A stretch of 30,670 bases of DNA from positions 1 to 30,670 of the IMG/VR virus record IMGVR_UViG_3300009151_000252; one strand, written 5' to 3'. The stretch comes from a virus. The notes beneath the pieces were generated by a model. That model was not told the DNA's origin, did no database searches, and saw nothing but the letters and a program-made list of their open reading frames with translations. The position numbers were made by a program, and so were the translations under genes. How positions within the stretch are numbered: the first letter of the stretch is position 1; every line of letters begins with the position of its first letter. Shown here in pieces: positions 13,617 to 26,227 of the stretch.

Positions 13617-14450
13617 TTAATGCAAATCTTTACCGGCGCATATTACTGCACATGCTGTTGATGAGTGAATACTTTCATAATGATTAACTACTGCAGAGTA
13701 ATCTACAATACGGTTACCCATTTCTTTATCAAGCTCTTGGCCAATAAGACGAACCATATCTTCAACGAAGCGGGGGTTTTCATACATAAGCTCTGTCTGA
13801 TAAGCTTCATCAATTCTCTTTAGAGCATTAATAATAGGTGCAGAGCTTGTACGCTCGACAATATCAATTAGCTCCTCAATCCACATAACACCCTTGCTCT
13901 CATCTAGCTCGACGGTTACGTCAGCAACACTTCGTTGATTATGAGCGCCGTAATCACTGATCTCTTTACTGCAAGGACACAGCGAAGCGTACAGCACGTT
14001 TACAGTTAGATATAGCTTCTTAACACCGTTAACGAGCCTACCTTCCATACTACCCCGATAGTCCATATGAGACTCAATACCTGATACCGGAGCTTTTCTC
14101 TTAAGAAAGTAATCAAACTTAATCTTTACATATGCATTATCAGACTTGAGCCGCTCTTTACACTCATCAAGAAGACTCGGTATAACTTCATGAATATAAT
14201 AACCGTCTTTTTGAAGAATTTCTTCAATTAAAATACGATATCTACTCATATTGGTACCTTTTACCTCAGGTGTCAGGTCTGTGTACATACTAATCTTACC
14301 GCTACTCTCGTTAACAGTACCGTCTTTGCGAATAATTTTAATAGGCACTGTTGCGTCTCGCGTACCTACCTTGGGTATATACTTGCGAGGGAATCCTTCA
14401 ACAGTGTTTTGAATATCAGGAATATCGTCGTTAGTTTTTTTACGTGGCAT
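13617..14450 (-). CDS. folE2: GTP cyclohydrolase IB (FolE2), first step to 7-deazaguanine
   Basis: This 277-residue protein from ATG 14450 has family hallmarks: RKAPVSGIESHMDYRG (about 118-132), the metal/catalytic stretch SLCPCSKEISDYGAHNQRS (156-174) and ALKRIDEAYQTE with YENPRFVED (209-230). Family knowledge places the catalytic, metal-binding Cys at 158 and a His ligand at 170, 12 residues apart as in characterised enzymes. It converts GTP to 7,8-dihydroneopterin triphosphate, used for folate or, via QueD/E/C, for preQ0. In a phage that also carries queF and a transglycosylase, the DNA-modification route is the likely purpose. It lies between gp32 and a clamp-linked gene, about 5 kb from the other pathway genes. 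Length is ordinary and no lesion is seen. Confidence 0.95.
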   Translation of the reverse strand: MPRKKTNDDIPDIQNTVEGFPRKYIPKVGTRDATVPIKIIRKDGTVNESSGKISMYTDLTPEVKGTNMSRYRILIEEILQKDGYYIHEVIPSLLDECKERLKSDNAYVKIKFDYFLKRKAPVSGIESHMDYRGSMEGRLVNGVKKLYLTVNVLYASLCPCSKEISDYGAHNQRSVADVTVELDESKGVMWIEELIDIVERTSSAPIINALKRIDEAYQTELMYENPRFVEDMVRLIGQELDKEMGNRIVDYSAVVNHYESIHSSTACAVICAGKDLH

Positions 14451-14479
14451 ATAATTTTTTAAGTTATTGTAATTTTATA

Positions 14480-15400
14480 TTAGATTTTGTTGAGAATGTC
14501 TTTGAGCTCAGCATCAAGATCGTCATCATCGTCATCAACATCGTCTTTAGGGGAGTTTTTTGCTTCTTCAATACCGCTGAAGACATCAAACTCAGGCGTA
14601 CGGTTAGATTTCATTGCAGATGCTTTTGCAAGAGTAGGCTTTGGGGCTACTACTACATCATCGTCATCCGAATAGGTGCTTGACGCATCTTCAATACATA
14701 GATAGTGCTGATCAAGCAAGCGCTGTAGCTCAGGAGCAGATTGCACTTTGTTTACAGATTCAAGATCAAAGATAGACTTATATAGTTCTGCGAGTCTATC
14801 ATCATTAACATCATCAAGTGTGGATGATGCTACAAACTTACTCGAACTGTAAGTAACAAGATGTTTTTGTGCGGCGTTATTAGTTCTTGGTTCACATTTA
14901 ATGCGCAACGAACACCCGTTTTGAATATCAAAAATCTTATTACCAAATTCAGATGCATCATCACCGTCGATAGCCGAGTCTACAATTTTTGCAAGCTCTC
15001 TACCGTAGCGCAGCATCTTTACTTTACCGACATTATCTGAGTTAGTTGCATCAGACACAACATATACGTTAGTGAGCCAGTTTTCTTTACGCGAGATCAA
15101 TTTATTCTTCTCTTTTTCTTCAGCTGAACCCGAGCGATACGTCTTGATTGCCTGACTGCAAAGAGGGCAAGTTTCGCCAAAGGTAGTGGGGCAAATTGCG
15201 GTTACGAACTTACCAGATGCTACACTATTCCAGCTATGATGAAAATAGTGAAAGATTGACTTTTTAGGTTGATTAACATTTGGCACAAGACGTAGCAAGT
15301 AGGTTTTACCAGACTCAAATTTAAGAATGTCCTTAAAGACGGTATCTTTATTATTGAGGTTGCTTTTAATTTCGTTGAACATTGAGTTAGTGAATTTCAT
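14480..15400 (-). CDS. 32: Single-stranded DNA-binding protein (gp32)
   Basis: This 306-residue protein from ATG 15400 matches T4 gp32 (301 aa) in plan. The N-terminal part, normally basic and cooperative, is short. The OB-fold core contains FESGKTYLLRLVPN and a zinc site with Cys 70, 78 and 81 plus an upstream His (51-55), like the T4 His-Cys-Cys-Cys subdomain. LRYGRELAKIVDSAI and a beta core follow. The C-terminus is strongly acidic (a DVDDDDDDLDAELKD stretch), the tail that recruits replication partners and guards the DNA cleft. It coats single-stranded DNA in replication, recombination and repair. Neighbours uvsX, gp41 and gp45 act with it. Confidence 0.95.
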   Translation of the reverse strand: MKFTNSMFNEIKSNLNNKDTVFKDILKFESGKTYLLRLVPNVNQPKKSIFHYFHHSWNSVASGKFVTAICPTTFGETCPLCSQAIKTYRSGSAEEKEKNKLISRKENWLTNVYVVSDATNSDNVGKVKMLRYGRELAKIVDSAIDGDDASEFGNKIFDIQNGCSLRIKCEPRTNNAAQKHLVTYSSSKFVASSTLDDVNDDRLAELYKSIFDLESVNKVQSAPELQRLLDQHYLCIEDASSTYSDDDDVVVAPKPTLAKASAMKSNRTPEFDVFSGIEEAKNSPKDDVDDDDDDLDAELKDILNKI

Positions 15401-15427
15401 ATAATGTATGATCTATAATATATCTTT

Positions 15428-16081
15428 TTATTGATTCTGCAAGCGCTTAAAAATTAAATTTTGAATTCTAAGAGTAGCTTGTTGTAAAAAAGGTCGCAGT
15501 AGAGTACTATTATTATAGTTGTCTCTGTATTTAAAATACGACACTGCTATTGGCCCTATTACAACCTCTTGCTCTTCGGGTGAGTATGTATTAATTGATT
15601 TATATAAACCATTTAATTCCATCAAGCTATAAGGGTGAATTAAATTTGTTTTAATATGCTCAACCCACACAGGCATGCCGCCGGTAGTATGTTTTATATA
15701 ATCTATGAGCTGTATACGTTCTGTAATACAGTACTCTGTTAAGAATTTTAAAGATCTCTTAACCTGTTCAATGCAATTATCAGGTAATTGCGCTTCTAGC
15801 TGTTTTTTATACAGTGAATATGATTTAATGGCTCGCGGGCTAGCGTAGTAATTTAAATCAAAAAATACAGCGTCTGTGTATATTTTATACGGAGCCTCAA
15901 AATACATCTTTACGTCTATCTCTTTATGCTTGCTCACAAATGTAGCAATACGTTTTATGCTTAGGTATTTTGGATCATCTTCAAAATTATCAAAATTTTC
16001 ACGCCTTTTAAACGGTTTATTTTGACGCTGTCGTGTAGTAGTTAAATATTGATTGTATATATGCTTTTCAAGATCTGTCAT
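15428..16081 (-). CDS. Unknown protein, positional candidate for helicase loader gp59
   Basis: This is a 217-residue protein from ATG 16081, overlapping the upstream stop by ATGA. It is mostly helical and basic, with blocks RQNKPFKRRENFDNF, KMYFEAPYKIY, FDLNYYASPRAIKSYSLYKKQL and LIDYIKHTTGGMPVWVEHI. In T4 the order 33-59-32 precedes frd, and gp59 is also 217 aa. This gene lies between gp41 and gp32 at the gp59 place. I do not see the usual gp59 opening (Y-x-x-x-K-x-H motifs), so homology is unproven and the equal length may be chance. Helicase-loader function is a hypothesis only. Confidence 0.6.
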   Translation of the reverse strand: MTDLEKHIYNQYLTTTRQRQNKPFKRRENFDNFEDDPKYLSIKRIATFVSKHKEIDVKMYFEAPYKIYTDAVFFDLNYYASPRAIKSYSLYKKQLEAQLPDNCIEQVKRSLKFLTEYCITERIQLIDYIKHTTGGMPVWVEHIKTNLIHPYSLMELNGLYKSINTYSPEEQEVVIGPIAVSYFKYRDNYNNSTLLRPFLQQATLRIQNLIFKRLQNQ

Positions 16082-16386
16082 TTTTTAAGAGATTTTTGAA
16101 ACGTTTTTTTAACGTTTTTACTCTTTAATAAAGCCGGGTACATGTGTAAGATACTTAAAAGAGCATCTCGCTCACTTTCTGACCCAGTCATAGATATTAA
16201 AATATAACGAACGTCGCTATTTTCTAATATCATTGTAAAGAGTGTTGAAGAATTAATTTTTTTATTAACAATAATTGACAAAAAAGAACCAAGCTTCATT
16301 AACCCTTCAATAAACTCTTTTGAAGACACGTTCTCAACTGGGTCATTATTATGTATTGTACTAGTTATATTTTTAATGTTGAGCAT
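16078..16386 (-). CDS. Small unknown protein, positional candidate for gp33
   Basis: This is a 102-residue protein from ATG 16386. It is helical throughout, with SKEFIEGLMKLGSFLSIIVN in the middle and a basic C-terminus (KSKNVKKTFQKSLKK). It is linked by ATGA to the next gene and ~45 bp after gp41. In T4, gp33 (112 aa) lies just before 59 and 32 and couples late RNA polymerase to the gp45 clamp. Order and size fit, but no gp33 signature can be confirmed by eye. It could equally be an unrelated small replication protein. Confidence 0.5.
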   Translation of the reverse strand: MLNIKNITSTIHNNDPVENVSSKEFIEGLMKLGSFLSIIVNKKINSSTLFTMILENSDVRYILISMTGSESERDALLSILHMYPALLKSKNVKKTFQKSLKK

Positions 16387-16430
16387 GTGTCTAAAATTTA
16401 ATTAAACACATTTGTCAACAAGTTCAACAC

Positions 16431-17780
16431 CTATTCAATATCCGTCAGTTTTGTAAGTGTGTTTGAGGCATCTTCTACAGCGGTTACAACGCTATCGGGA
16501 GCAAAATAATCAGAATTAGTTTCAGATAATGTAAGTGTATCGTACTTTATCTTAAAAGCGCATGTACCAAAATTAGGACCAAACCTATTCTTAATAACGC
16601 CCATGTGAACCAAACCGAGTTCTTTGTCTTCTTCTTCTTGCCAAATGGAACACATAACATCACATGTTGCAGCAAGACCAATACTCTCTGACACGCCCTC
16701 CATGCCGGGATTGCTTGTATTAAAAGCATCTCTTTTAAGCTGAGACGCTGTTACGATTGGTAGGTTATATTTGAATGATAAAGCTCGTAATTGCTCTGCT
16801 ATTTCTTTAACACCTTCATATGAATTAAGATTTTTAGAAGTGGTTTTTAGCAAATTAATATAATCAATTACAACCACCGCTGGTCTAAAACCTTTTTGTA
16901 AAAGCTTAGTAATATACGCATCAATATGTCTTGTGGTTACAGATTTTGGCGGAAATTCTTTAATCACCAGTCTACTATCTATACGCTTTTTAAGGTGTGT
17001 GACAGAATCTTTAAGCTCGTCTACGTAAACCTTTAACTGATTATGTGGTATTTGAGTAATTTGCGAACTGATACGCTTAGCATACATAAACTCCGACATT
17101 TCAAGGGATATAAGAAGCACATTATGATCTCTCATCACAATATTAGTTGCAATATTGCCGAGAAATATACTTTTACCGACATTTACTTGGCCTAATATAC
17201 ATGTAAGCGTTTTAGGGTACAGTCCTCCTTCGAGTCGATCATCGAGAAACTTCCATCCTAACGGCAGTGGGTTATACACCGTTACCAGGTCTCTAATATG
17301 TTTATCAACATCTTCAAAGTACCAGTGTCCTAAACTTTCACTTAATGTAATTGCGCTTGCTTTTTCAAACTCAAGTAATACTTCTGCGGGATCAATTTTA
17401 CCCTTTGAGAACTTCTCTGCAGTATCAATAATAGCTTTTTGAAGGCAACGCTCTTTTAAAAAACGCTCTGTGTTACAAAGTAACTCTTGCTTATCAAATT
17501 CTCTATCTAATTGTTTAAGTCTGCTAACAGCACTATTAAAAGACTCTTTTTCTTCATCGGTAATTAAACGCGCTTTTATTTCTGTATGAGTAGGTACAAC
17601 GCCACGCTCTCTAAAAAATGACGATATTGTAGTAAAAACAACTTTAACATCTTTATTAGCAAAATAATCCGCGCTTACATACTCAATAATTGATGATAAA
17701 TATTCTTGATTTGTAAGAGAGTTTAATAAAATTATATTTTCGTAATAATCTAGATCTAACTGCTTAGAGTCATTTTGCAT
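16431..17780 (-). CDS. 41: Replicative DNA helicase (gp41, DnaB-like)
   Basis: This is a 449-residue protein from ATG 17780 (T4 gp41: 475 aa). The N-terminal helical hairpin domain ends near 150. The RecA-like core then carries LPLGWKFLDDRLEGGLYPK, Walker A GQVNVGKS (197-204), the LLISLEMSEFMYAKRI block, Walker B VVVIDYINLL and the SQLKRDAF/MCSIWQ sensor region. The hexamer unwinds the fork 5'-3' and recruits primase. It starts 4 bp after the uvsX stop, as in an operon. The primase (gp61) is not in the window. The C-terminal Asp/Thr-rich tail is short. Confidence 0.95.
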   Translation of the reverse strand: MQNDSKQLDLDYYENIILLNSLTNQEYLSSIIEYVSADYFANKDVKVVFTTISSFFRERGVVPTHTEIKARLITDEEKESFNSAVSRLKQLDREFDKQELLCNTERFLKERCLQKAIIDTAEKFSKGKIDPAEVLLEFEKASAITLSESLGHWYFEDVDKHIRDLVTVYNPLPLGWKFLDDRLEGGLYPKTLTCILGQVNVGKSIFLGNIATNIVMRDHNVLLISLEMSEFMYAKRISSQITQIPHNQLKVYVDELKDSVTHLKKRIDSRLVIKEFPPKSVTTRHIDAYITKLLQKGFRPAVVVIDYINLLKTTSKNLNSYEGVKEIAEQLRALSFKYNLPIVTASQLKRDAFNTSNPGMEGVSESIGLAATCDVMCSIWQEEEDKELGLVHMGVIKNRFGPNFGTCAFKIKYDTLTLSETNSDYFAPDSVVTAVEDASNTLTKLTDIE

Positions 17781-17784
17781 ATTT

Positions 17785-18891
17785 TTATTCTAGCTCATTT
17801 ACTTCAGTCTGCAAGTCTTCAGACACAGAACTGCTATTATTACTATAACATAGCTGTTTTTGCAAAACTTCTTCAAGAACAGGCATAATACGGTCCCACA
17901 TTTCTTGAGATTTTTCAATTTCTTTACGATAACCTAAAATATCATTGCCTAGTGCATATCTATTACCGTTCTTTTGAAGAACGTTGTAAGATGTAGCAAT
18001 ATCAAATAAACCCGAATGTCTATCAAGGCCAGTTTTAAAGTTTAAGTATAATTCTGTTTTGAGGAAATTAGGAACAAAGCGATTTTTAACAGTCATTGCT
18101 CCTAGTGTCACTCCTGATACATTATTAGAAATAGCTACAGATGCTTCATCAGGGTTTTCAGATGTCTTTTCGTTACGAGTACTTAATTGTACAAGCACAG
18201 ATGCAAGATAAACAGGCCCTTTACCACCGCTTTGGTTTTTTACAAGCGTGGGAAACATCTCCATGCCTTCATAAATATGATTACTAAAAAGAATTGGCAC
18301 TCTTGCTTTAGCTGCTTTGTACGTAAGAGTACGCATCATGGATTTAATAGCTTTTGCGCGCTGGCCCACATCTGCTGCATCTTTACCTGCAGCAGCATCT
18401 TTAAGCTCTTTTGAGCTCGCAAGGTTGCCAAGTGAGTCTATTGCTACAATAAATTTGTGTTCGGGATTATTTGCTTCAATAATATTGTCGAGAAATTTAC
18501 TCATTTGATTTCGGCAATCTTCAACTGTCTCAACTGGATAATATTTTACACGAGACGTATCCATTCCTGCACCTTCTGCGCTTTTTTTATCAACAGCAAC
18601 TTCAGAATCCCATATTACTGGGATATAGCCCTTCTTTTGCGCATTAGCCATAATTTTATTCATTATAAGCGTCTTACCGGCCTGAGACGGGCCTGCAAAG
18701 CCAGTGATTCTCCCAGAGGGAATACCCTTATACATTGATCCTGAGATAATAGCATTGAGTGCGTAGCTCCCAGTGTCAATCCAGTCATCCGCAGTAGATA
18801 GAGCTGACTCATCTAGTATGCCCGCATCGGGGTTTAATGCGTCTACAGTTTTGAAAATATCTTTTAAGTGACTCAACGGATCTTTTGCCAT
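17785..18891 (-). CDS. uvsX: RecA-like strand-exchange recombinase (UvsX)
   Basis: This is a 368-residue protein from ATG 18891 (T4 UvsX: 391 aa). Walker A GPSQAGKT lies at 67-74, in RITGFAGPSQAGKTLIMNKI. YIPVIWDSEVAVD holds the first acidic site, and FIVAIDSLGNLASSKE is Walker B with the following L1-like region. VKNRFVPNFLKTELYLNF and a Gly-rich RHSGLFDIA segment close the core. It forms filaments on gp32-coated single-stranded DNA for repair and recombination-dependent replication. A terminator hairpin sits upstream, and a -35/-10-like pair (TTGAAA, 18 bp, TAATAT) lies close to the start, suggesting its own promoter. Confidence 0.96.
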   Translation of the reverse strand: MAKDPLSHLKDIFKTVDALNPDAGILDESALSTADDWIDTGSYALNAIISGSMYKGIPSGRITGFAGPSQAGKTLIMNKIMANAQKKGYIPVIWDSEVAVDKKSAEGAGMDTSRVKYYPVETVEDCRNQMSKFLDNIIEANNPEHKFIVAIDSLGNLASSKELKDAAAGKDAADVGQRAKAIKSMMRTLTYKAAKARVPILFSNHIYEGMEMFPTLVKNQSGGKGPVYLASVLVQLSTRNEKTSENPDEASVAISNNVSGVTLGAMTVKNRFVPNFLKTELYLNFKTGLDRHSGLFDIATSYNVLQKNGNRYALGNDILGYRKEIEKSQEMWDRIMPVLEEVLQKQLCYSNNSSSVSEDLQTEVNELE

Positions 18892-18896
18892 ATAAA

Positions 18897-18926
18897 ATAT
18901 TATGTAACCATATTCATTTTTTTCAA
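18897..18926 (-). promoter_or_regulatory. Weak promoter-like pair before uvsX
   Basis: On the minus strand TTGAAA (18921-18926) and TAATAT (18897-18902) are 18 bp apart, a sigma70-like layout. The predicted transcript start would fall at or within a few bases of the uvsX ATG, so the mRNA would be leaderless or nearly so. It directly follows a terminator, where a new promoter is expected. Both boxes are AT-rich and could arise by chance. Confidence 0.25.
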
Positions 18927-18929
18927 CAA

Positions 18930-18963
18930 AAAAGCTCTTAAACTTTTACATCTAAGAGCTTTT
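18930..18963. terminator. Bidirectional Rho-independent terminator
   Basis: An 11-bp stem (18930-18940 with 18953-18963; AGCTCTTA/TAAGAGCT core) has a 12-nt loop. On the minus strand it is followed by T-rich TTTTTTGTTG, and on the plus strand by TTTTATTTTA. It ends the cassette that includes queF and the small gene at 18988-19353, separating it from uvsX. The T-tracts on both sides make it the best terminator in the window. Confidence 0.8.
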
Positions 18964-18987
18964 TATTTTATTGTTTAGATTATTAAA

Positions 18988-19353
18988 TTATTCATCAAAC
19001 AATTTAACTAACTGAGGCGACTCTTTTACAGGTTCTGCCGGCTTTTGAGGCGGATTAAAGAGTTGTTGATACTGTGCAATAAACTTAAAATCAAGAACTA
19101 CATCATTACATATATGTATATTACTATGTTTAAAATCCCATACAGTAGACTCTGTAGGATCAGCTAAAAACTCACGAAAAAACACAGGCAATAACTGTAA
19201 TGTAATTTGACCTGTTTGTGCATTTGGTGTGATACTTACTACAGATGGGTTTTTAATTGATAAAACCTCATTTGTGGTTTTAACTTTTTCTCCGAGTATA
19301 GTCCTACCGATAGCATCGAGAAATACTACTAACTTATTATTTGGTGTTGTCAT
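18988..19353 (-). CDS. Small unknown protein after queF
   Basis: This is a 121-residue protein from ATG 19353, 11 bp after the queF stop. It starts NKLVVFLDAIGRTILGEKV and includes SIKNPSVVSITPNAQTGQITLQLLPVFF and WDFKHSNIHICNDVVLDFKF. It ends in a Pro/Glu/Lys-rich tail. The beta-rich first ~100 residues are a likely folded domain. I recall similar small proteins in T4-like marine phages but no function. It shares the operon with the deazaguanine cassette, which alone does not tie it to modification. A terminator follows it. Confidence 0.6.
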   Translation of the reverse strand: MTTPNNKLVVFLDAIGRTILGEKVKTTNEVLSIKNPSVVSITPNAQTGQITLQLLPVFFREFLADPTESTVWDFKHSNIHICNDVVLDFKFIAQYQQLFNPPQKPAEPVKESPQLVKLFDE

Positions 19354-19364
19354 ATATTAAAAAA

Positions 19365-20258
19365 TTATTGTCTTGATGTAAGAGGAAATCTTTGAGTGTT
19401 ATCTGTAAAACATCTATCTAAAAGTTTAACATCAGATACGCGAACAGGGTTAATATCGAGGCTACCACGACGTACATACTTACACTGTACATACAATTCT
19501 TCGGGTTTACACTTTGTCATTAATCGCATATATATTGCTTCACAAATTTCTTCATGAAAATGACACTCATTACGAAAGCTGATTATATATTCTAAAAGAG
19601 ACTCTTCGGTTACGGGAGTAAGCGACTTCATATAAATAAAAACATCGCCATGATCTGGTTGATGTGTCACTCTACAGTTTGACCGCAGCAATGAAGATGT
19701 ATACCCGCGCTCTATTGGAGTAAATACTTCGTATGTCTGAAGTACATCAGGTGATTCGCTATAGCGCGTATACATCTTGCCTTCGGGCACTACGTCTTCG
19801 AGAACGGTGTATCTATCACTAATTGGTTCATACACATTAGAGTCATATGCCGAAAACATTTTTACGCTAACTTTAGCTTCTAGCAACTCCGAAAGATCTC
19901 TAGATGCGGTATCTTCTATGTTTTGAAAGACGCTAAGTCTACTTGCTCCCATTTTAGACATATTAAATGAATTAAAGTATAGCTTAGCAGACTTTGACTC
20001 AACAATATATTTTGAGTTACAGTCGTATGTAATTTGTGCAATACCTGATACAGGTAGACCGTCATATGTTAAAGAACCCACCTCCCAATTGTTCCATAAA
20101 TCTTTACCAAAGAAAGGTAAATGGTTACTATCAATATTAAGATAAGTTCTATTATTTTGACGCAGTTCTTTAACTAAGATTGATTTATCATATTGCTCGG
20201 GTGCCGAAACTCTTTGGCCTAACACCTTTGAAATTGCTGTGTTATCTATTTGTTGCAT
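19365..20258 (-). CDS. queF: QueF, NADPH-dependent preQ0 reductase
   Basis: This 297-residue protein from ATG 20258 matches the long two-domain QueF of the E. coli type (282 aa). The N-terminal half has NHLPFFGKDLWNNWEV and VESKSAKLYFNSFN (86-99). The C-terminal half has the catalytic Cys in SNCRVTHQPD (Cys195) and Asp202, the same seven-residue spacing as E. coli C190/D197. His235-Glu236 in CHFHEE and YVRRGSLDINPVR are also present. It reduces the nitrile of 7-cyano-7-deazaguanine to the aminomethyl group, giving preQ1. The active site looks intact. It follows the kinase-like gene by 6 bp, and dpdN and dpdA lie just before, so the preQ1 probably serves DNA modification rather than tRNA queuosine. 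Confidence 0.95.
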   Translation of the reverse strand: MQQIDNTAISKVLGQRVSAPEQYDKSILVKELRQNNRTYLNIDSNHLPFFGKDLWNNWEVGSLTYDGLPVSGIAQITYDCNSKYIVESKSAKLYFNSFNMSKMGASRLSVFQNIEDTASRDLSELLEAKVSVKMFSAYDSNVYEPISDRYTVLEDVVPEGKMYTRYSESPDVLQTYEVFTPIERGYTSSLLRSNCRVTHQPDHGDVFIYMKSLTPVTEESLLEYIISFRNECHFHEEICEAIYMRLMTKCKPEELYVQCKYVRRGSLDINPVRVSDVKLLDRCFTDNTQRFPLTSRQ

Positions 20259-20264
20259 GATCTG

Positions 20265-20789
20265 TTATATATTAACTACTCTATGTATTAAATCAACACG
20301 CTCTTTAACGGTGCCTTTTAATTCTGTGTATTTAATATTATATTCTTTTAATACATTATTAAAATTATTTACAACAGAATTAAAAAATTTTATATCCTGT
20401 GAACGCGTACCATCATCAGTTAAAATAAGTTCAGGTTTGATGTAAAAAATTACATCATATTGTTTAATTGTGTGATTAAACAATTCAATAAAAGTATTAG
20501 ATAATTGGTTTTTACTTATTTCGCTCCAAAAATACAAGCTATAAGCAAGACCGTCAATAACACATCTATCAAATACTGCATCATCACAACATGTATTTTT
20601 AAAATGTTGCATCATTATTAATAGTTGTGTATTAGCATTACCGCTTTCATTAATAATATTACCTTCGGACATTAACTGTCTTGTAGGGCTATTAATAAAA
20701 TTAAAATGCTTGTACCTTATATCTTTCTTAAGCTCATTTAAGAGGGTTGTCTTACCTTGACCGTGTGCGCCAGATAAAGCGATTTTCAT
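20265..20789 (-). CDS. P-loop NTPase/kinase-like protein inside modification cassette
   Basis: This is a 174-residue protein from ATG 20789, overlapping the formyltransferase stop (ATGA). It has an N-terminal Walker A, GAHGQGKTT (7-15), a DR-containing loop AVFDRCVIDGLAY (71-83, with Walker-B-like Asp 74/79), and a strand plus helix IFYIKPELILTDDGTRSQD like the lid region of small kinases. The layout matches NadR/thymidylate-kinase-like AAA_28 proteins, which bind ATP and may phosphorylate small molecules. Its intimate position between dpdN and queF suggests a step in making or handling the modified base or a nucleotide. Substrate is unknown, and a general dNMP kinase is another possibility. 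Confidence 0.7.
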   Translation of the reverse strand: MKIALSGAHGQGKTTLLNELKKDIRYKHFNFINSPTRQLMSEGNIINESGNANTQLLIMMQHFKNTCCDDAVFDRCVIDGLAYSLYFWSEISKNQLSNTFIELFNHTIKQYDVIFYIKPELILTDDGTRSQDIKFFNSVVNNFNNVLKEYNIKYTELKGTVKERVDLIHRVVNI

Positions 20790-21316
20790 ATTTTTATTTT
20801 TTTACTTAAAAACTCACACCATAAATCTGTAGCTGCTTTATGCACTTTTGAGTACACCTCATCGAGAGTACAGTTTTGTATATCAACAGAGTTCTCTGCT
20901 TCAATCTCACCAGCGTCTACTTCTGCAACACACTTATGAATAGTATTACCGCCGTATACTAAATTCATGTCAAAGCATTTTTGTTGAGGGTCTTTACCTT
21001 TGAGAAAAGGGTATCTTGTTAAGGGAGCTGGATGAGAGTTATATATATTAAAACCATCACATACAGCTGGTGGAATAATCCTCAACCACCCGTGTAGTGT
21101 TACAATATCACTGCTATTTAACACTGTATTGTATTCGTGCACCTGTGGTTTTACAGGTAAAACAACTAAACGGTCATGATACGACTGATATAAATCTTGA
21201 TTTATTTTAGATAAATCTTGTTTATTTGTCACAATAACATCAGGTACTTTTTTCAGGTTTTGAGATATATTAAAAATCTCACTACCGGTTTGCGAAAACA
21301 TTGCTACCCACTTCAT
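20786..21316 (-). CDS. dpdN: PurN-like formyltransferase, DpdN-type (preQ1 formylation)
   Basis: This is a 176-residue protein. ATG 21316 (MKWVAMFSQTGSE) is chosen because it matches the first strand and loop of formyltransferases and lies one base after the dpdA stop; a longer frame to 21457 would overlap dpdA by 140 bp. The PurN-type catalytic set is visible: Asn93 and His95 in YNSHPAPLTRYP, His127, and Asp134 in VAEVDAGEI, with H-to-D spacing of seven as in PurN. LHGWLRIIPP matches the segment just before. It should use 10-formyltetrahydrofolate to formylate an amine. Phage DpdN proteins are reported to make 7-(formylamino)methyl-7-deazaguanine. Linkage to dpdA and queF strongly favours that role over purine synthesis. 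Confidence 0.85.
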   Translation of the reverse strand: MKWVAMFSQTGSEIFNISQNLKKVPDVIVTNKQDLSKINQDLYQSYHDRLVVLPVKPQVHEYNTVLNSSDIVTLHGWLRIIPPAVCDGFNIYNSHPAPLTRYPFLKGKDPQQKCFDMNLVYGGNTIHKCVAEVDAGEIEAENSVDIQNCTLDEVYSKVHKAATDLWCEFLSKKIKI

Positions 21317-21317
21317 A

Positions 21318-22175
21318 CTACGAGCACAAATTTCTAAATTTCCAAATATTGTTTTGAATAGTAGTTTGTTGGTCTTTACTAACATGACTATTAATAAAGT
21401 CAACAAGTTTACAGCTCCATTTGTCTGTGAGGCCGTGTTTGACATTATAATCAACATTAAGAAGACCCGCTACTATAGGATTAGATGTATCAATTGTATG
21501 TATAGCCTGTAATGATGCACTCGGTAATTCTTTTATAAGAACTTTAAACTCCCACGGTACACTACAACCCAATAAATGATGTTTTTTGTTTTTATTAAAA
21601 ATACCGTCTTTTATCAAGTCTACCAAAAATTGAATTCTGCCAGCGGCATAATTACACCACTGGTTAGTAAAAGAGTCGTTAGGTAAATCAAGATATTTTG
21701 CATACTTGTACTGTAAGTTAAGATCAATATTACCCGCTTGTAAATAATAACTATAATCAAAACTAATAGCTATTTTATCTACTCTATCTTGCATAAATTT
21801 ATAACAATTTACAAGTTCATCATATGTCTTGCCTTGCACAACGCCTATCGATTTACCGGGTAGGTTTTTGTACTCTTTCGTGAAGTGTGTGAAAGATTGT
21901 TGTGTACCTATTGCATCTTCGAGTACATCGGGTACTATATACTCTGTCGGAGTAAGTTTTTCGATCCACTCAGCAAACGATTTACCATCGTACGCTGTAC
22001 CTAATTCAAATATTGAGTTATCAAGTAATACATGCCTACCCATTTTAATAGAGTCAAAATAAAAATCTCTATACAAACTATATTCAGGTAATAGATGAAC
22101 TAGGCAATAATCGTAATCATTATAGTACCTAGATAGAGGTAGCATATCAATCGGGGTTTCGTGGCTTAATAGCAT
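21318..22175 (-). CDS. dpdA: DpdA-like DNA guanine transglycosylase
   Basis: This is a 285-residue protein. ATG 22175 (MLLSHETPID) is chosen; an upstream TTG at 22211 only adds 12 unsupported residues. The TGT-family order is recognisable: HVLLDNSIFELG with Asp52 at the place of the general acid/base (DSGGFQ in tRNA enzymes), PDVLED, GVVQGKTYDEL, KIAISFDY, LLGCSVPWEF and IHTIDTSNPI with Asp229 as candidate nucleophile. The C-terminal zinc-binding Cys/His set of tRNA-guanine transglycosylases is not evident, as expected of phage DpdA. It would exchange guanine in DNA for preQ0 or preQ1. Exact DpdA subfamily is not assigned. A divergent region separates it from the polymerase gene. Confidence 0.8.
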   Translation of the reverse strand: MLLSHETPIDMLPLSRYYNDYDYCLVHLLPEYSLYRDFYFDSIKMGRHVLLDNSIFELGTAYDGKSFAEWIEKLTPTEYIVPDVLEDAIGTQQSFTHFTKEYKNLPGKSIGVVQGKTYDELVNCYKFMQDRVDKIAISFDYSYYLQAGNIDLNLQYKYAKYLDLPNDSFTNQWCNYAAGRIQFLVDLIKDGIFNKNKKHHLLGCSVPWEFKVLIKELPSASLQAIHTIDTSNPIVAGLLNVDYNVKHGLTDKWSCKLVDFINSHVSKDQQTTIQNNIWKFRNLCS

Positions 22176-22387: not shown

Positions 22388-24949
22388 TTAATCCATACCA
22401 AACAAATCAAATAAATCAGTCTGTACTTCTTTACCTATTTGAGGTAATCTCCAATTTAATGCCGCGTACAATCTTTCAACAGGTGATGAAGCAATCTTCA
22501 TAAACATTTTTTCGTAATCTATACTGATGTTTTCAAACTCTTTTGGCACCTCTGTTGTAAAAGCTAAAGCGTCCAAACGAAACGGGTTTTTACTTGTATA
22601 AAACCATTTAATCTTTTGTCCAGATCTAATCTTTTCGTATTTACCTGCGAGGTTATATTTCTCTAGCAAAAGATTGTATGCAATACTTGCTTTTGCATGA
22701 CATGGTGTACCTTTATTAAATTTATCAAGAGTTGCACCTTCAGAATATTTAGTATAGTCAGAAATACTACTACGAAACGAAACATCGGGCACTGGCAGGG
22801 ACACAAAGACCTCATAAGCTTTTTTATATGCATCGTTTACGAGTTTACAGTTATTTGAAATAAGAGCTAGTTCTATAACATCTTTCATTAGCGTTTTAAC
22901 TTGCTTCGGCATTGTGCTTCTAACAATTTCTACCCCGACATATTTAAATTTACCGCCTTCGAGCGCCGTACCTTCTTTATCAAAAATTCGGACCACGTAG
23001 CGTTTTTTAGCAAAAAACACACCAACATCAGCAATGATTTCTCGCTTAAACTCAAACCTAGGGTCTTTAGAATTAAGTTCTTTACTCGCCCAGTTGTTAA
23101 TCTCAATGTTAACATGTGTAGTTATTTTATTAACAATTTCATGTACTTCTTCGTTAATTATTTTTCTATCAACATCAAGAAGGTTAATGTTATTTTTATC
23201 TAATACTGACTGTATAGATATGTATACACTATCAGTATCACCTGCTACCACACATGTATCTGTTATACCGTAATTTTTAAATATATATTCATCAAGAATA
23301 GACGCACCGGCTTTAGCAACTGCCTGACCTGTTCTAGTAATAGATGATGCATTATCAATATCCATGAATGCGCTGTGTTTGTTAGCAAATGTACCGTATA
23401 TACTATTTAAAAAGATTTTAATGGTGTGCTGAAGAGTATCAAGGTATCCCATTAAAGCATCTTCGTCTTCTGTACGTTTTGTTTTTTTACTGAGCGTCGA
23501 CAACTGCTTTTTTGCAGCTACACGCTCAGCATATAGCTTATCAATTAAGTTTGGACACACACCTTTAAATTTTTGCGTATACAAAACCCCTGCTTTAGAT
23601 ATTGCAAGATTTTCTCTCTTAATAAAGGTATTAAATTGAGCGGTTGTGAGATCGTGTATTTTACCGTTGACAAGCCTCAAAGTTAATTTTTCATCTACTC
23701 CGTATTCACCGGTTACAATTTTACCTATTTTTGTTTCAGGTGAAATATTCAGAGTAACAATAGTATTAGGGTATAGTGAATTAACATCGTAACTAACTAT
23801 ACTTTTCTGCAAACCTTTTTTAGACTCTCTTACAAAACCACCTGCAAGAGACTCTCTATCATGCTCGTTCTTAAACGTGGGTATAATATAACCGTGCTTA
23901 TATGCCTGTAAGGTCATAGCACCTGTGACAATTGCAACCTTACCAAGGGCTGCTTCAAAGTTAGTACACCCCTTGTATGCAAGTAGACGAACAATTTTTA
24001 AGTAATTTAATTTACGCTCTAGCTTAACGAGTAGCTCGACATCCTGTATGTTATAATCAACAAAATTTTCCCAATCTTCAGTTGCAAGATTTGATAGATT
24101 TGTAGCGTTGATTGCAAGCTTACCTTCATTAAGTTCGTATTCACCAATATAATTTAACGAATACGATTCGCGCTCTCCTTGAGAGAACGTTTTATATACA
24201 TCCATGTAATCCAAGCAGCTTACTCCGTAAATGATCCATTTACCAACTTCTTTGCCATAGTCTCCCATGAACGTTCTATAATACAATTTACGTATAGGTG
24301 ATAACTGATTTATAAACTCATCATTTAAAAGCTTTCTACCTCTATTAATAATATAAGGAATATCAAAATATTCTGAATTCCACCCACATAATATATCTGG
24401 TGGGTCAATCTTCCAGAAATCCATAAACCTTATAAAAAGATCTACTTCATTTTTACAACATACATACTTAACGTTGGCTCTTTTTGGTGTGTATTTTTTC
24501 TCTGTTCCCCAACTGTATATTTCATCTGTTAAGCTGTTATGAAGTGAGAGTAATATAACAGGGTCTTTTGCGAGATCGGGTACAGGGAATTCATTAGGAG
24601 AAAAAGTTTCAATGTCTAATGAATATATTTTAAGTGGGAATTTGCTGAAATCAGGGTCGTCAATATTATCTTTAAACGATTCAATTAAAAACTGCTGCTC
24701 ACACGAGATGTTACCAAATAAACGTGTTGTTGAAGTATCTTTCACAAACCTAGACCTCTCAGCATTATTCTTGAAAACATGCTTTTTCAAGTGTGTACGA
24801 AATATGCTTGTTGCATCAGACGGCTTAAGCGTTTCTGTATAAAGAAACGGACAAAAAGTAACTTCAGTGTCTATTCTCTTACCATCAGGGGTCCACGTAC
24901 GAAGATACATTGCACCTTCGCGGCTATTGTAATGTGCATTACGATACAT
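22388..24949 (-). CDS. 43: Family B DNA polymerase (gp43)
   Basis: This 853-residue protein from ATG 24949 is slightly shorter than T4 gp43 (898 aa). The 3'-5' exonuclease has Exo I YSLDIETFSP (Asp112/Glu114), Exo II LCGWNSEYFDIPY (Asn191/Asp196) and Exo III VDYNIQDVELL (Tyr299/Asp303). The polymerase has motif A SYDVNSLYPN (Asp388), motif B KIFLNSIYGTFANK (511-524) and motif C VVAGDTDSVYIS (Asp571/573). All catalytic residues are present. The C-terminus ends TDLFDLFGMD, a hydrophobic clamp-binding-type tail as in T4 (LDFLFD). It replicates the genome with gp45 and gp41. The substrate DNA is modified afterwards if DpdA acts as proposed. Confidence 0.98.
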   Translation of the reverse strand: MYRNAHYNSREGAMYLRTWTPDGKRIDTEVTFCPFLYTETLKPSDATSIFRTHLKKHVFKNNAERSRFVKDTSTTRLFGNISCEQQFLIESFKDNIDDPDFSKFPLKIYSLDIETFSPNEFPVPDLAKDPVILLSLHNSLTDEIYSWGTEKKYTPKRANVKYVCCKNEVDLFIRFMDFWKIDPPDILCGWNSEYFDIPYIINRGRKLLNDEFINQLSPIRKLYYRTFMGDYGKEVGKWIIYGVSCLDYMDVYKTFSQGERESYSLNYIGEYELNEGKLAINATNLSNLATEDWENFVDYNIQDVELLVKLERKLNYLKIVRLLAYKGCTNFEAALGKVAIVTGAMTLQAYKHGYIIPTFKNEHDRESLAGGFVRESKKGLQKSIVSYDVNSLYPNTIVTLNISPETKIGKIVTGEYGVDEKLTLRLVNGKIHDLTTAQFNTFIKRENLAISKAGVLYTQKFKGVCPNLIDKLYAERVAAKKQLSTLSKKTKRTEDEDALMGYLDTLQHTIKIFLNSIYGTFANKHSAFMDIDNASSITRTGQAVAKAGASILDEYIFKNYGITDTCVVAGDTDSVYISIQSVLDKNNINLLDVDRKIINEEVHEIVNKITTHVNIEINNWASKELNSKDPRFEFKREIIADVGVFFAKKRYVVRIFDKEGTALEGGKFKYVGVEIVRSTMPKQVKTLMKDVIELALISNNCKLVNDAYKKAYEVFVSLPVPDVSFRSSISDYTKYSEGATLDKFNKGTPCHAKASIAYNLLLEKYNLAGKYEKIRSGQKIKWFYTSKNPFRLDALAFTTEVPKEFENISIDYEKMFMKIASSPVERLYAALNWRLPQIGKEVQTDLFDLFGMD

Positions 24950-24988: not shown

Positions 24989-26227
24989 TTATTTAATATA
25001 AACACGCTTTGGGTCTTTAAATGCAGTAAAATATGCTTCGACATGTTGGTTTATATTTTTCTCGTCTTCAAGCCAATACCCCTCTGACAGTGCTCGAGAC
25101 TTCTTGCATAAGTCAGCGTAACGTGTTTGGTCTTTAAGAGCGTATTTTATAGCGTCAATAAATTCATCACCAGTCTTATATTTTAAAAACGCGTCCTGAT
25201 ATGTCACCATATCAGGGCATACGCATGGTATACCTACAGCTCCTGATTCTGTAAGCTTAATATTGCTTTTTGCTCTATTAAATTCGTTGTCTAATAGAGC
25301 AGCAAACGTTAATTGAGCACCGGATTCTGCAACAGCCTTAGCGTAGTCGGGTAACTTAACCCACGGTATATATTGCATTTCTCCTCTATCAATATACGGC
25401 TTTAACTGAAATGGAAATGATCCGTAAAACACCCATTTAAACATTGTTCTCGTTTTTATAATTGCGGGTACAACGTGTGCAAAGTCATCATAGAAATTTG
25501 CACGGCCCGCTGCATCAACGTGTGTACCTGATGCAAATATTGCAATGACGGGTTTTTTCTTATTTTTTTCGTAAAGTTTTACACGGTCACCTAGGTTATA
25601 GTACCGATCCCACCACCACTTGAACAAATGATTGGGTATATGCGTACCGTTTTTATTACCCGTTTTTGCAATATAATAATCTCTCATATACGCAGACGGT
25701 GTTGTAACTTCATCAGCAAGCTGCATGATTTCAACAATGCTTTTGCGTATTTCCGGTGGCATAAAAGCGCCTTTATTTTTATTGTAATTGGGTATGTCTT
25801 CACCTAATACAATATCATCTACTTCATATATTATCTTAAAATTGTATCTCTCGCTTAATTTTTTGAGAGATTGCATAAACTGTAACTGAATAGGCGTAGC
25901 CTGTCTTTGCACTTTAACAGCTTTGATATTTTGATAAAAACGTTCATCAAGAATCATCTGAGTTAACTCGTGTACAACGCCTTTTTCGTATAAGTTAATT
26001 ACAAAATTTGGTCCCATGCACCTCCATAATGCACATCCACCATAATCTGCAAGATAATTTAAAGCACGTGGTAGCTTTGCTCCAGGTACGTCGGTAATGT
26101 CTTGGTTTTGCTTAGGCTTGTTTTGTGGCGAAGGGTACAGGTAGTTAACAGAGGGTGTACTTAGTGGTATACCTTGAGGAGCTCCGTGTATATTATGCAA
26201 GCCGTAATTTTGAATACTATATTCCAT
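24989..26227 (-). CDS. Glycosyltransferase-like protein (GT-B / GT4-like)
   Basis: This is a 412-residue protein from ATG 26227. After a low-complexity Pro/Gln N-terminus (~50 residues) come YLADYGGCALWRCMGP, VKVQRQATPIQLQF, FKIIYEVDDIVLGEDIPNYN, DEVTTPSAYMRDYY, a nucleotide-binding-like strand KKPVIAIFASGTHVDAAG, WVFYGSFP and the donor-site block KSNIKLTESGAVGIPCVCPD. This matches GT-B-fold group 1 glycosyltransferases. Such genes occur in T4-like environmental phages between replication genes. The acceptor is unknown: virion protein, a modified base, or a host glycan. No signal peptide, so the cytoplasm is expected. Placement between gp46 and gp43 is unlike T4. Confidence 0.7.
   Translation of the reverse strand: MEYSIQNYGLHNIHGAPQGIPLSTPSVNYLYPSPQNKPKQNQDITDVPGAKLPRALNYLADYGGCALWRCMGPNFVINLYEKGVVHELTQMILDERFYQNIKAVKVQRQATPIQLQFMQSLKKLSERYNFKIIYEVDDIVLGEDIPNYNKNKGAFMPPEIRKSIVEIMQLADEVTTPSAYMRDYYIAKTGNKNGTHIPNHLFKWWWDRYYNLGDRVKLYEKNKKKPVIAIFASGTHVDAAGRANFYDDFAHVVPAIIKTRTMFKWVFYGSFPFQLKPYIDRGEMQYIPWVKLPDYAKAVAESGAQLTFAALLDNEFNRAKSNIKLTESGAVGIPCVCPDMVTYQDAFLKYKTGDEFIDAIKYALKDQTRYADLCKKSRALSEGYWLEDEKNINQHVEAYFTAFKDPKRVYIK

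Follow-up and report, generated by a model that had tools for sequence, protein, structure and literature searches.

Phages that replace all of one base in their DNA usually make the modified deoxynucleoside triphosphate (dNTP), and enzymes of the TGT type modify bases within existing nucleic acid. Among the DpdA transglycosylases, the subfamily DpdA3 is reportedly tied to full replacement in the 2023 work of Cui et al., which is also said to describe a dPreQ1 formyltransferase, DpdN, and to treat insertion as post-replicative, with no role given to a kinase. Replacement is partial (27%) in Enterobacteria phage 9g and ~30% or below in the measured DpdA1/DpdA2 phages 9g, Rosebush, and HVTV-1 (PMC6884629), while in the Campylobacter phages CP220 and CPt10 100% of the deoxyguanosine (dG) is replaced by dADG (PMC8306585). 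The route to 100% replacement by 7-deazaguanine is unsettled. A modified deoxyguanosine triphosphate (dGTP) was proposed for the Campylobacter phages before their DpdA was recognised, and Hutinet et al. in 2019 left room for modified dGTP or unrecognised deoxyribosyltransferases (PMC6884629), while later views favour exchange by DpdA at the level of the DNA. Here the window, which is the whole 30,670-nucleotide stretch of the IMG/VR virus record IMGVR_UViG_3300009151_000252, was found to encode FolE2, QueF, a P-loop kinase, a PurN-like formyltransferase, and a DpdA3-type transglycosylase. The phage most likely has a preQ1-type pathway for guanine replacement, of the kind that leads to complete replacement, and our reading, to which we give a probability of roughly 0.58, is that the window holds most of a pathway replacing guanine by a formylated preQ1-type base, with the swap made at the nucleotide level.

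The 285-amino acid transglycosylase (21318..22175, minus strand) is invisible to the usual TGT model, since PF01702 did not match it, and the Pfam search as a whole gave no match either. An AlphaFold2 model built from a 40-sequence alignment reached a predicted local distance difference test (pLDDT) score of 94.1 (prediction from the single sequence was useless, pLDDT 32.6), and its best match among 350,542 PDB chains was 7ui4, the DNA preQ0 insertase DpdA (E 4.8e-4, probability 1.00), with mouse TGT, 7ovo, in second place. The TM-scores to these fold matches are ~0.5 and the protein is therefore a distant relative of DpdA/TGT, with a predicted TGT/DpdA beta-barrel fold. D52 and D229 are invariant in 40 close relatives and also in a set of nine sequences with deeply divergent members, and D83 is conserved as well. 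In hhalign the GVVQG and LLDNS motifs pair, without significance, with the GIIQG motif of TGT and the FLDSG motif of DpdA1, and the proposed kinship with these enzymes is based on the modelled fold and the order of the motifs. The preliminary description of this DNA had pointed to Asp52 and Asp229 of a transglycosylase-like protein and had staked its proposal on the structure of this product. Both residues proved invariant and the modelled fold is of the TGT/DpdA type.

The sequence relatives of the enzyme are the Campylobacter CP220/CP21 proteins, at 43-44% identity (43.4% over 99% for the DpdA of CP220/CPt10, E about 1e-51), and the 'DNA guanine transglycosylase' of the Flavobacterium phage immuto, at 42%, a group that we take to be the DpdA3 of Cui et al. 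Weak links extend to proteins of Bacillus, Cellulophaga phiST, Chryseobacterium, Aeromonas, and Vibrio phages. Because its relative in CP220 comes from a phage reported to have all of its dG replaced, the enzyme is assigned by sequence to the complete-replacement type of DpdA and not to the 9g type. A 9g-type (DpdA1) identity was rejected, as hhalign of the two alignments gave a probability of 1% and the two fall in different PHROGs (19058 and 887). Hence, of the preQ1-derived guanine replacement that had been claimed for this phage, a preQ1-type pathway with a DpdA-like enzyme stands, while the enzyme groups with CP220 and immuto and is not of the 9g/DpdA1 kind. A scan with a Bacillus-type DpdA found no viral contigs.

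In cellular genomes (84,980 species, each represented by a single genome) DpdA3 is nearly absent, with only two loci. These two (L180 and L181), in a Spirochaetia metagenome-assembled genome and a Rhodobacteraceae bin, hold DpdA3 together with its kinase and are probably binned phage DNA. The scarcity of cellular DpdA3 speaks against the idea that the genes of the window raise queuosine precursors for host tRNA, with DpdA3 being minor or tRNA-directed, which was considered by Hutinet et al. in 2019 for phages that have preQ0 genes and no recognised DpdA (PMC6884629). This idea is very improbable, as the DNA of the CP220-type phages, which once belonged to that group, is fully modified (PMC8306585), and the feeding of a host TGT needs neither QueF nor a formyltransferase nor a dedicated kinase.

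The most constant partner of dpdA, which was missing from the earlier list of pathway genes, is a P-loop (deoxy)nucleoside/nucleotide kinase of the AAA_28/NadR-TMPK type (20265..20789, minus strand; Pfam AAA_28 1.6e-14), with profile matches to the structures of thymidylate kinase, dNK, and NadR. Among the 52 loci of the window's clade with enough downstream sequence, 52 have the kinase downstream of dpdA, 49 have queF, and 25 have the formyltransferase. The kinase is retained beside dpdA even at loci that lack queF or the formyltransferase, and where no formyltransferase intervenes, it begins before dpdA has ended (median -11 bp). Since the kinase is constant and queF and the formyltransferase are variable, dpdA and the kinase represent the core and the base chemistry is an add-on. 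This evidence for DpdA3 plus a nucleotide kinase as the core of the pathway, which comes from comparison of sequences, is new.

Four kinase families occupy the same place beside dpdA in different DpdA3-like clades. These are the AAA_28 kinase in the window, immuto, and the Campylobacter phages, a TMPK-like kinase in Bacillus/Weizmannia phages, an AAA_18 kinase in phiST and Chryseobacterium phages, and a T4-gene-1-like deoxynucleoside monophosphate (dNMP) kinase (DNMK) in the Aeromonas/Vibrio phages Ahp1, D479, and Bakedbeans. The four families have at most weak similarity to one another and in the tree, some deep branches of which are poorly supported, each is confined to one clade. Aeromonas phage Ahp1 encodes another gene-1 kinase, of full length, elsewhere, and the one adjacent to dpdA is therefore an extra copy. 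As a control, 80 DpdA1 (9g-type) loci were treated by the same method, and in none of the 73 that were testable was there a kinase within two genes of dpdA, compared to 66 of 75 DpdA3 loci (74 of 75 if the limit is set at 2.5 kb). As the loci share ancestry, the counts are not independent events; the recurrence of different kinase families is a stronger argument than the counts.

QueF and the formyltransferase, the enzymes of the base chemistry, are clear members of their families. QueF, the preQ0-to-preQ1 nitrile reductase (19365..20258, minus strand), has both of its Pfam domains above cut-off (QueF_N 3.4e-28, QueF 1.1e-18), and 67 relatives conserve C195, D202, H235, E236, and the ESKSxKLY motif to at least 95%. 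The longest open reading frame (ORF) of the PurN-like, or DpdN-like, formyltransferase (Pfam Formyl_trans_N 9.1e-10) extends to 21457 and overlaps dpdA, but its relatives begin at the MK/W position (MKWV), which places the gene at 20786..21316 on the minus strand, immediately following the dpdA stop. The catalytic N-H...D signature of the enzyme (N140, H142, and D181 in the numbering of the long ORF) shows at least 95% conservation across 40 relatives, and the protein, which is predicted to formylate preQ1 or its nucleotide, is 47% identical to the one adjoining dpdA in immuto. The catalytic Cys195 and Asp202 of QueF and the PurN-like enzyme that the preliminary description had picked out are thus confirmed, and all four of the proteins it named are encoded here, well beyond what chance would give. 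The formyltransferase is seen solely alongside queF (25/25 loci) while the converse fails, with queF found without the formyltransferase in 24 loci, and this dependence fits an aminomethyl acceptor and hence formyl-preQ1. The end product is most likely formylated dPreQ1 (fdPreQ1).

Sequence or fold shows which enzymes are present, in what order and how conserved, and that the kinase is obligate, and from these the following pathway is proposed. FolE2 would open the route from GTP; QueD and QueE, with a phage or host QueC, all outside the record, would finish preQ0; and QueF would reduce preQ0 to preQ1. The PurN-like enzyme would formylate the aminomethyl group, at a point in the order that we infer, and DpdA3 would exchange guanine for the 7-deazaguanine. 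We are inclined to think, with some caution, that DpdA3 acts on a free deoxynucleotide or deoxynucleoside (deoxyguanosine monophosphate (dGMP) or dG) and not on DNA. This is because the kinase is its most constant partner, several families have been placed in the same position, and DpdA1 loci are without one, and because CP220 and CPt10 are fully replaced and the measured DpdA1/DpdA2 phages are replaced to about 30% at most. The adjacent kinase would phosphorylate the 7-deaza product, which the phage polymerase would then incorporate, such that complete replacement would be prepared before replication. The broader proposition, that the base is swapped on free dGMP or the deoxynucleoside and that a dedicated kinase was recruited from a different family in each clade, is an even bet.

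The kinase also makes insertion of 7-deazaguanine into DNA by DpdA, which had been taken as established, one of two live readings. DpdA3 may swap guanines in finished DNA, as TGT does in tRNA, with the kinase serving as an early-operon pool enzyme for dNTP supply or in the salvage of released guanine, and we regard such a post-replicative exchange as a serious possibility at somewhat less than even odds. TGT and the DpdAs of 9g and CAjan act on nucleic acid, and the current literature classes DpdA likewise, placing its action at the DNA or nucleic-acid level (PMC12783734). The nearest fold is DpdA 7ui4, then TGT, and a kinase neighbour is missing at some DpdA3-like loci. What a post-replicative exchange leaves unexplained is the kinase in 52/52 loci of the window's clade, the different families in one place, and the 0/73 in DpdA1, and the swapping of all G in double-stranded DNA would be a demanding reaction. 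A comparison of isoelectric points was uninformative on DNA binding, as both groups are acidic (median 5.2 for DpdA3 versus 5.8 for DpdA1).

Several further results weigh against a nucleotide-level pathway as proposed here. In the DNMK (Aeromonas/Vibrio) clade a kinase is nearby in 40 of 77 informative metagenomic loci, while 37/77 are without one within 1.5 kb, and the isolates RHph_I1_18 and StAshley have no adjacent kinase. The MazG and PRA-PH families are not enriched in DpdA3 records (HD-type enzymes were not searched), and MazG, a dNTP pyrophosphatase of the type that a dGTP-depleting nucleotide route might want, is if anything commoner in DpdA1 records than in DpdA3 records. No significance was reached when the DpdA3 profile was compared with the profiles of E. 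coli Tgt and DpdA1, and the best NCBIfam model of the QueF, TIGR03138 (1e-68), falls below its equivalog cut-off (232 vs 293 bits). Taking both sides together, a swap on free nucleotides is about as likely as a swap on DNA, or slightly likelier. The linkage of the kinase and the clean contrast with DpdA1 make the question of nucleotide versus DNA directly testable.

A kinase neighbour for all DpdA3-like enzymes was rejected in view of the 37 DNMK-clade loci and the two isolates. The kinase-less loci of this clade that were inspected have DUF3310-like and dCTP-deaminase-like genes instead, names that reflect resemblance to annotated genes of Rhizobium and Vibrio phages. In Aeromonas phage Ahp1 (L102 4983-6966) and Vibrio phage D479 (L177 3986-5875) the dpdA3-like gene is directly followed by an additional dNMP kinase of the gene-1-like type and a gene resembling dCTP deaminase, and in Rhizobium phage RHph_I1_18 (L099 4965-6233) the dpdA3-like domain lies inside a 422-amino acid protein annotated with DUF3310, after which comes a dUTPase. 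In the Aeromonas/Vibrio clade (L102 4537-4929 and many of the loci L182-L261), dpdA3 is immediately preceded by the gene for a small conserved protein (~130 amino acids, phrog_17812, EGIH.YPAA...PHRHIFHF), which is possibly part of the base chemistry.

The entry to the pathway is assigned to FolE2, GTP cyclohydrolase IB, the first step towards preQ0 (13617..14450, minus strand). It matches Pfam GCHY-1 (E=1.8e-67 over residues 10-268) and the NCBIfam FolE2 equivalog (224.4 bits, cut-off 215), and the CPCSKEIS motif by which it was first recognised is C158-P-C160-S-K-E-I-S. Across 28 records of relatives, FolE2 was present in seven, FolE-I in eight, and both in none, a mutual exclusion that ties FolE2 to the modification pathway. 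The seven FolE2 records include five with queD, of which four also have queE and the fifth queC. The closest metagenomic relatives (63%) repeat the layout of the window, including FolE2 beyond gp32. These patterns are not expected if FolE2 is a folate/thymidylate gene outside the modification and the pathway runs from queF to dpdA, fed by host preQ0. For such a separation one can cite the ~7 kb, including gp32, helicase, and RecA, that lie between FolE2 and dpdA and the fact that GTP cyclohydrolase is common to folate and preQ0 synthesis (PMC6884629), but with FolE2 trading places with FolE-I across dpdA3 phages, in a recurring layout and mostly in the company of queD, we consider it improbable.

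Neither queD, queE, nor queC was seen within the 30.7-kb record, which extends only 8.5 kb upstream of dpdA. In larger relatives queD and queE are 18-30 kb from dpdA, and the corresponding copies would lie beyond the end of the fragment. The 'partial set of genes' of the preliminary description is therefore accurate for the record but is put down to its length. The queC gene is present in 6 of the 28 relatives' records and among those with FolE2 only in G040, and for the remaining phages a host QueC, or a queC in the unsequenced part, has to be assumed. One relative (G016, the record of L031) has two QueD/PTPS-family genes, at 69902-70330 and 38481-38876. The window shows FolE2 substituting for FolE-I in a phage 7-deazaguanine pathway. 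FolE2 is the zinc-independent type of GTP cyclohydrolase, and its use in place of FolE-I could matter under zinc shortage.

The record is a 30.7-kb fragment of a T4-like bacterial virus, with genes typical of T4-type phage for terminase, tail sheath, gp32, a DnaB-type helicase, a RecA/UvsX-like protein, and family B polymerase. All five pathway genes are on the minus strand, in the two places originally described, with gp32 (14480-15400), the helicase (16431-17780), and RecA/UvsX (17785-18891) lying between FolE2 and QueF. The family B DNA polymerase (22388..24949, minus strand; Pfam DNA_pol_B 2.5e-28), directly upstream of dpdA, would need to accept a modified nucleotide or a modified template. 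The interval from gp32 to the helicase holds two ORFs (15428-16386; 217 and 102 amino acids) that are also in L003 and have no family matches. A glycosyltransferase-like protein (24989-26227; weak Glyco_trans_1_2 match) adjoins the polymerase and is conserved in L003, where two more genes (343 and 306 amino acids) resemble nucleotide-sugar enzymes, as judged by eye from sequence. Megablast found no match to the locus among annotated phages.

The closest annotated relative is Flavobacterium phage vB_FspM_immuto (MW353175), from which the pathway row is already known. Like the window, it has dpdA, a PurN-like formyltransferase, a kinase, and queF in a row, with DpdA and QueF annotated as such, and DpdA, formyltransferase, and QueF are 42-47% identical between the two. 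The FolE2 of the window is a variation on this arrangement, as in immuto FolE-I, queD, and queE lie a short way upstream of dpdA and the polymerase is of family A, while in the window FolE2 stands apart and the polymerase is of family B. The Campylobacter phages CP220, CPt10, and CP21 (Firehammervirus) share with the window a DpdA that is 43-44% identical over its length and a homologous kinase directly downstream, but they have neither QueF nor a formyltransferase beside dpdA, and their base is dADG, which is not a preQ1 derivative. Phage 9g, with its DpdA1, is similar in combining DpdA with preQ0 synthesis genes and in the order of its DS/DN and DxS motifs, and differs in its longer protein, which has no profile-detectable sequence homology to that of the window, and in the absence of a neighbouring kinase. 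If the proposed mechanism is true, DpdA3 would be, to our knowledge, the first TGT-fold enzyme to act on free nucleotides, unlike DpdA1/DpdA2 and every known TGT, and would offer a simple way to 7-substituted 7-deaza-dG nucleotides and fully substituted DNA. The T4 gene 1 dNMP kinase and the PurZ/dZTP-type substitution resemble the proposal in that a modified dNMP is phosphorylated and then incorporated by the polymerase, but these systems alter the base on the nucleotide, whereas the putative pathway of the window would exchange the whole base by means of a TGT-fold enzyme.

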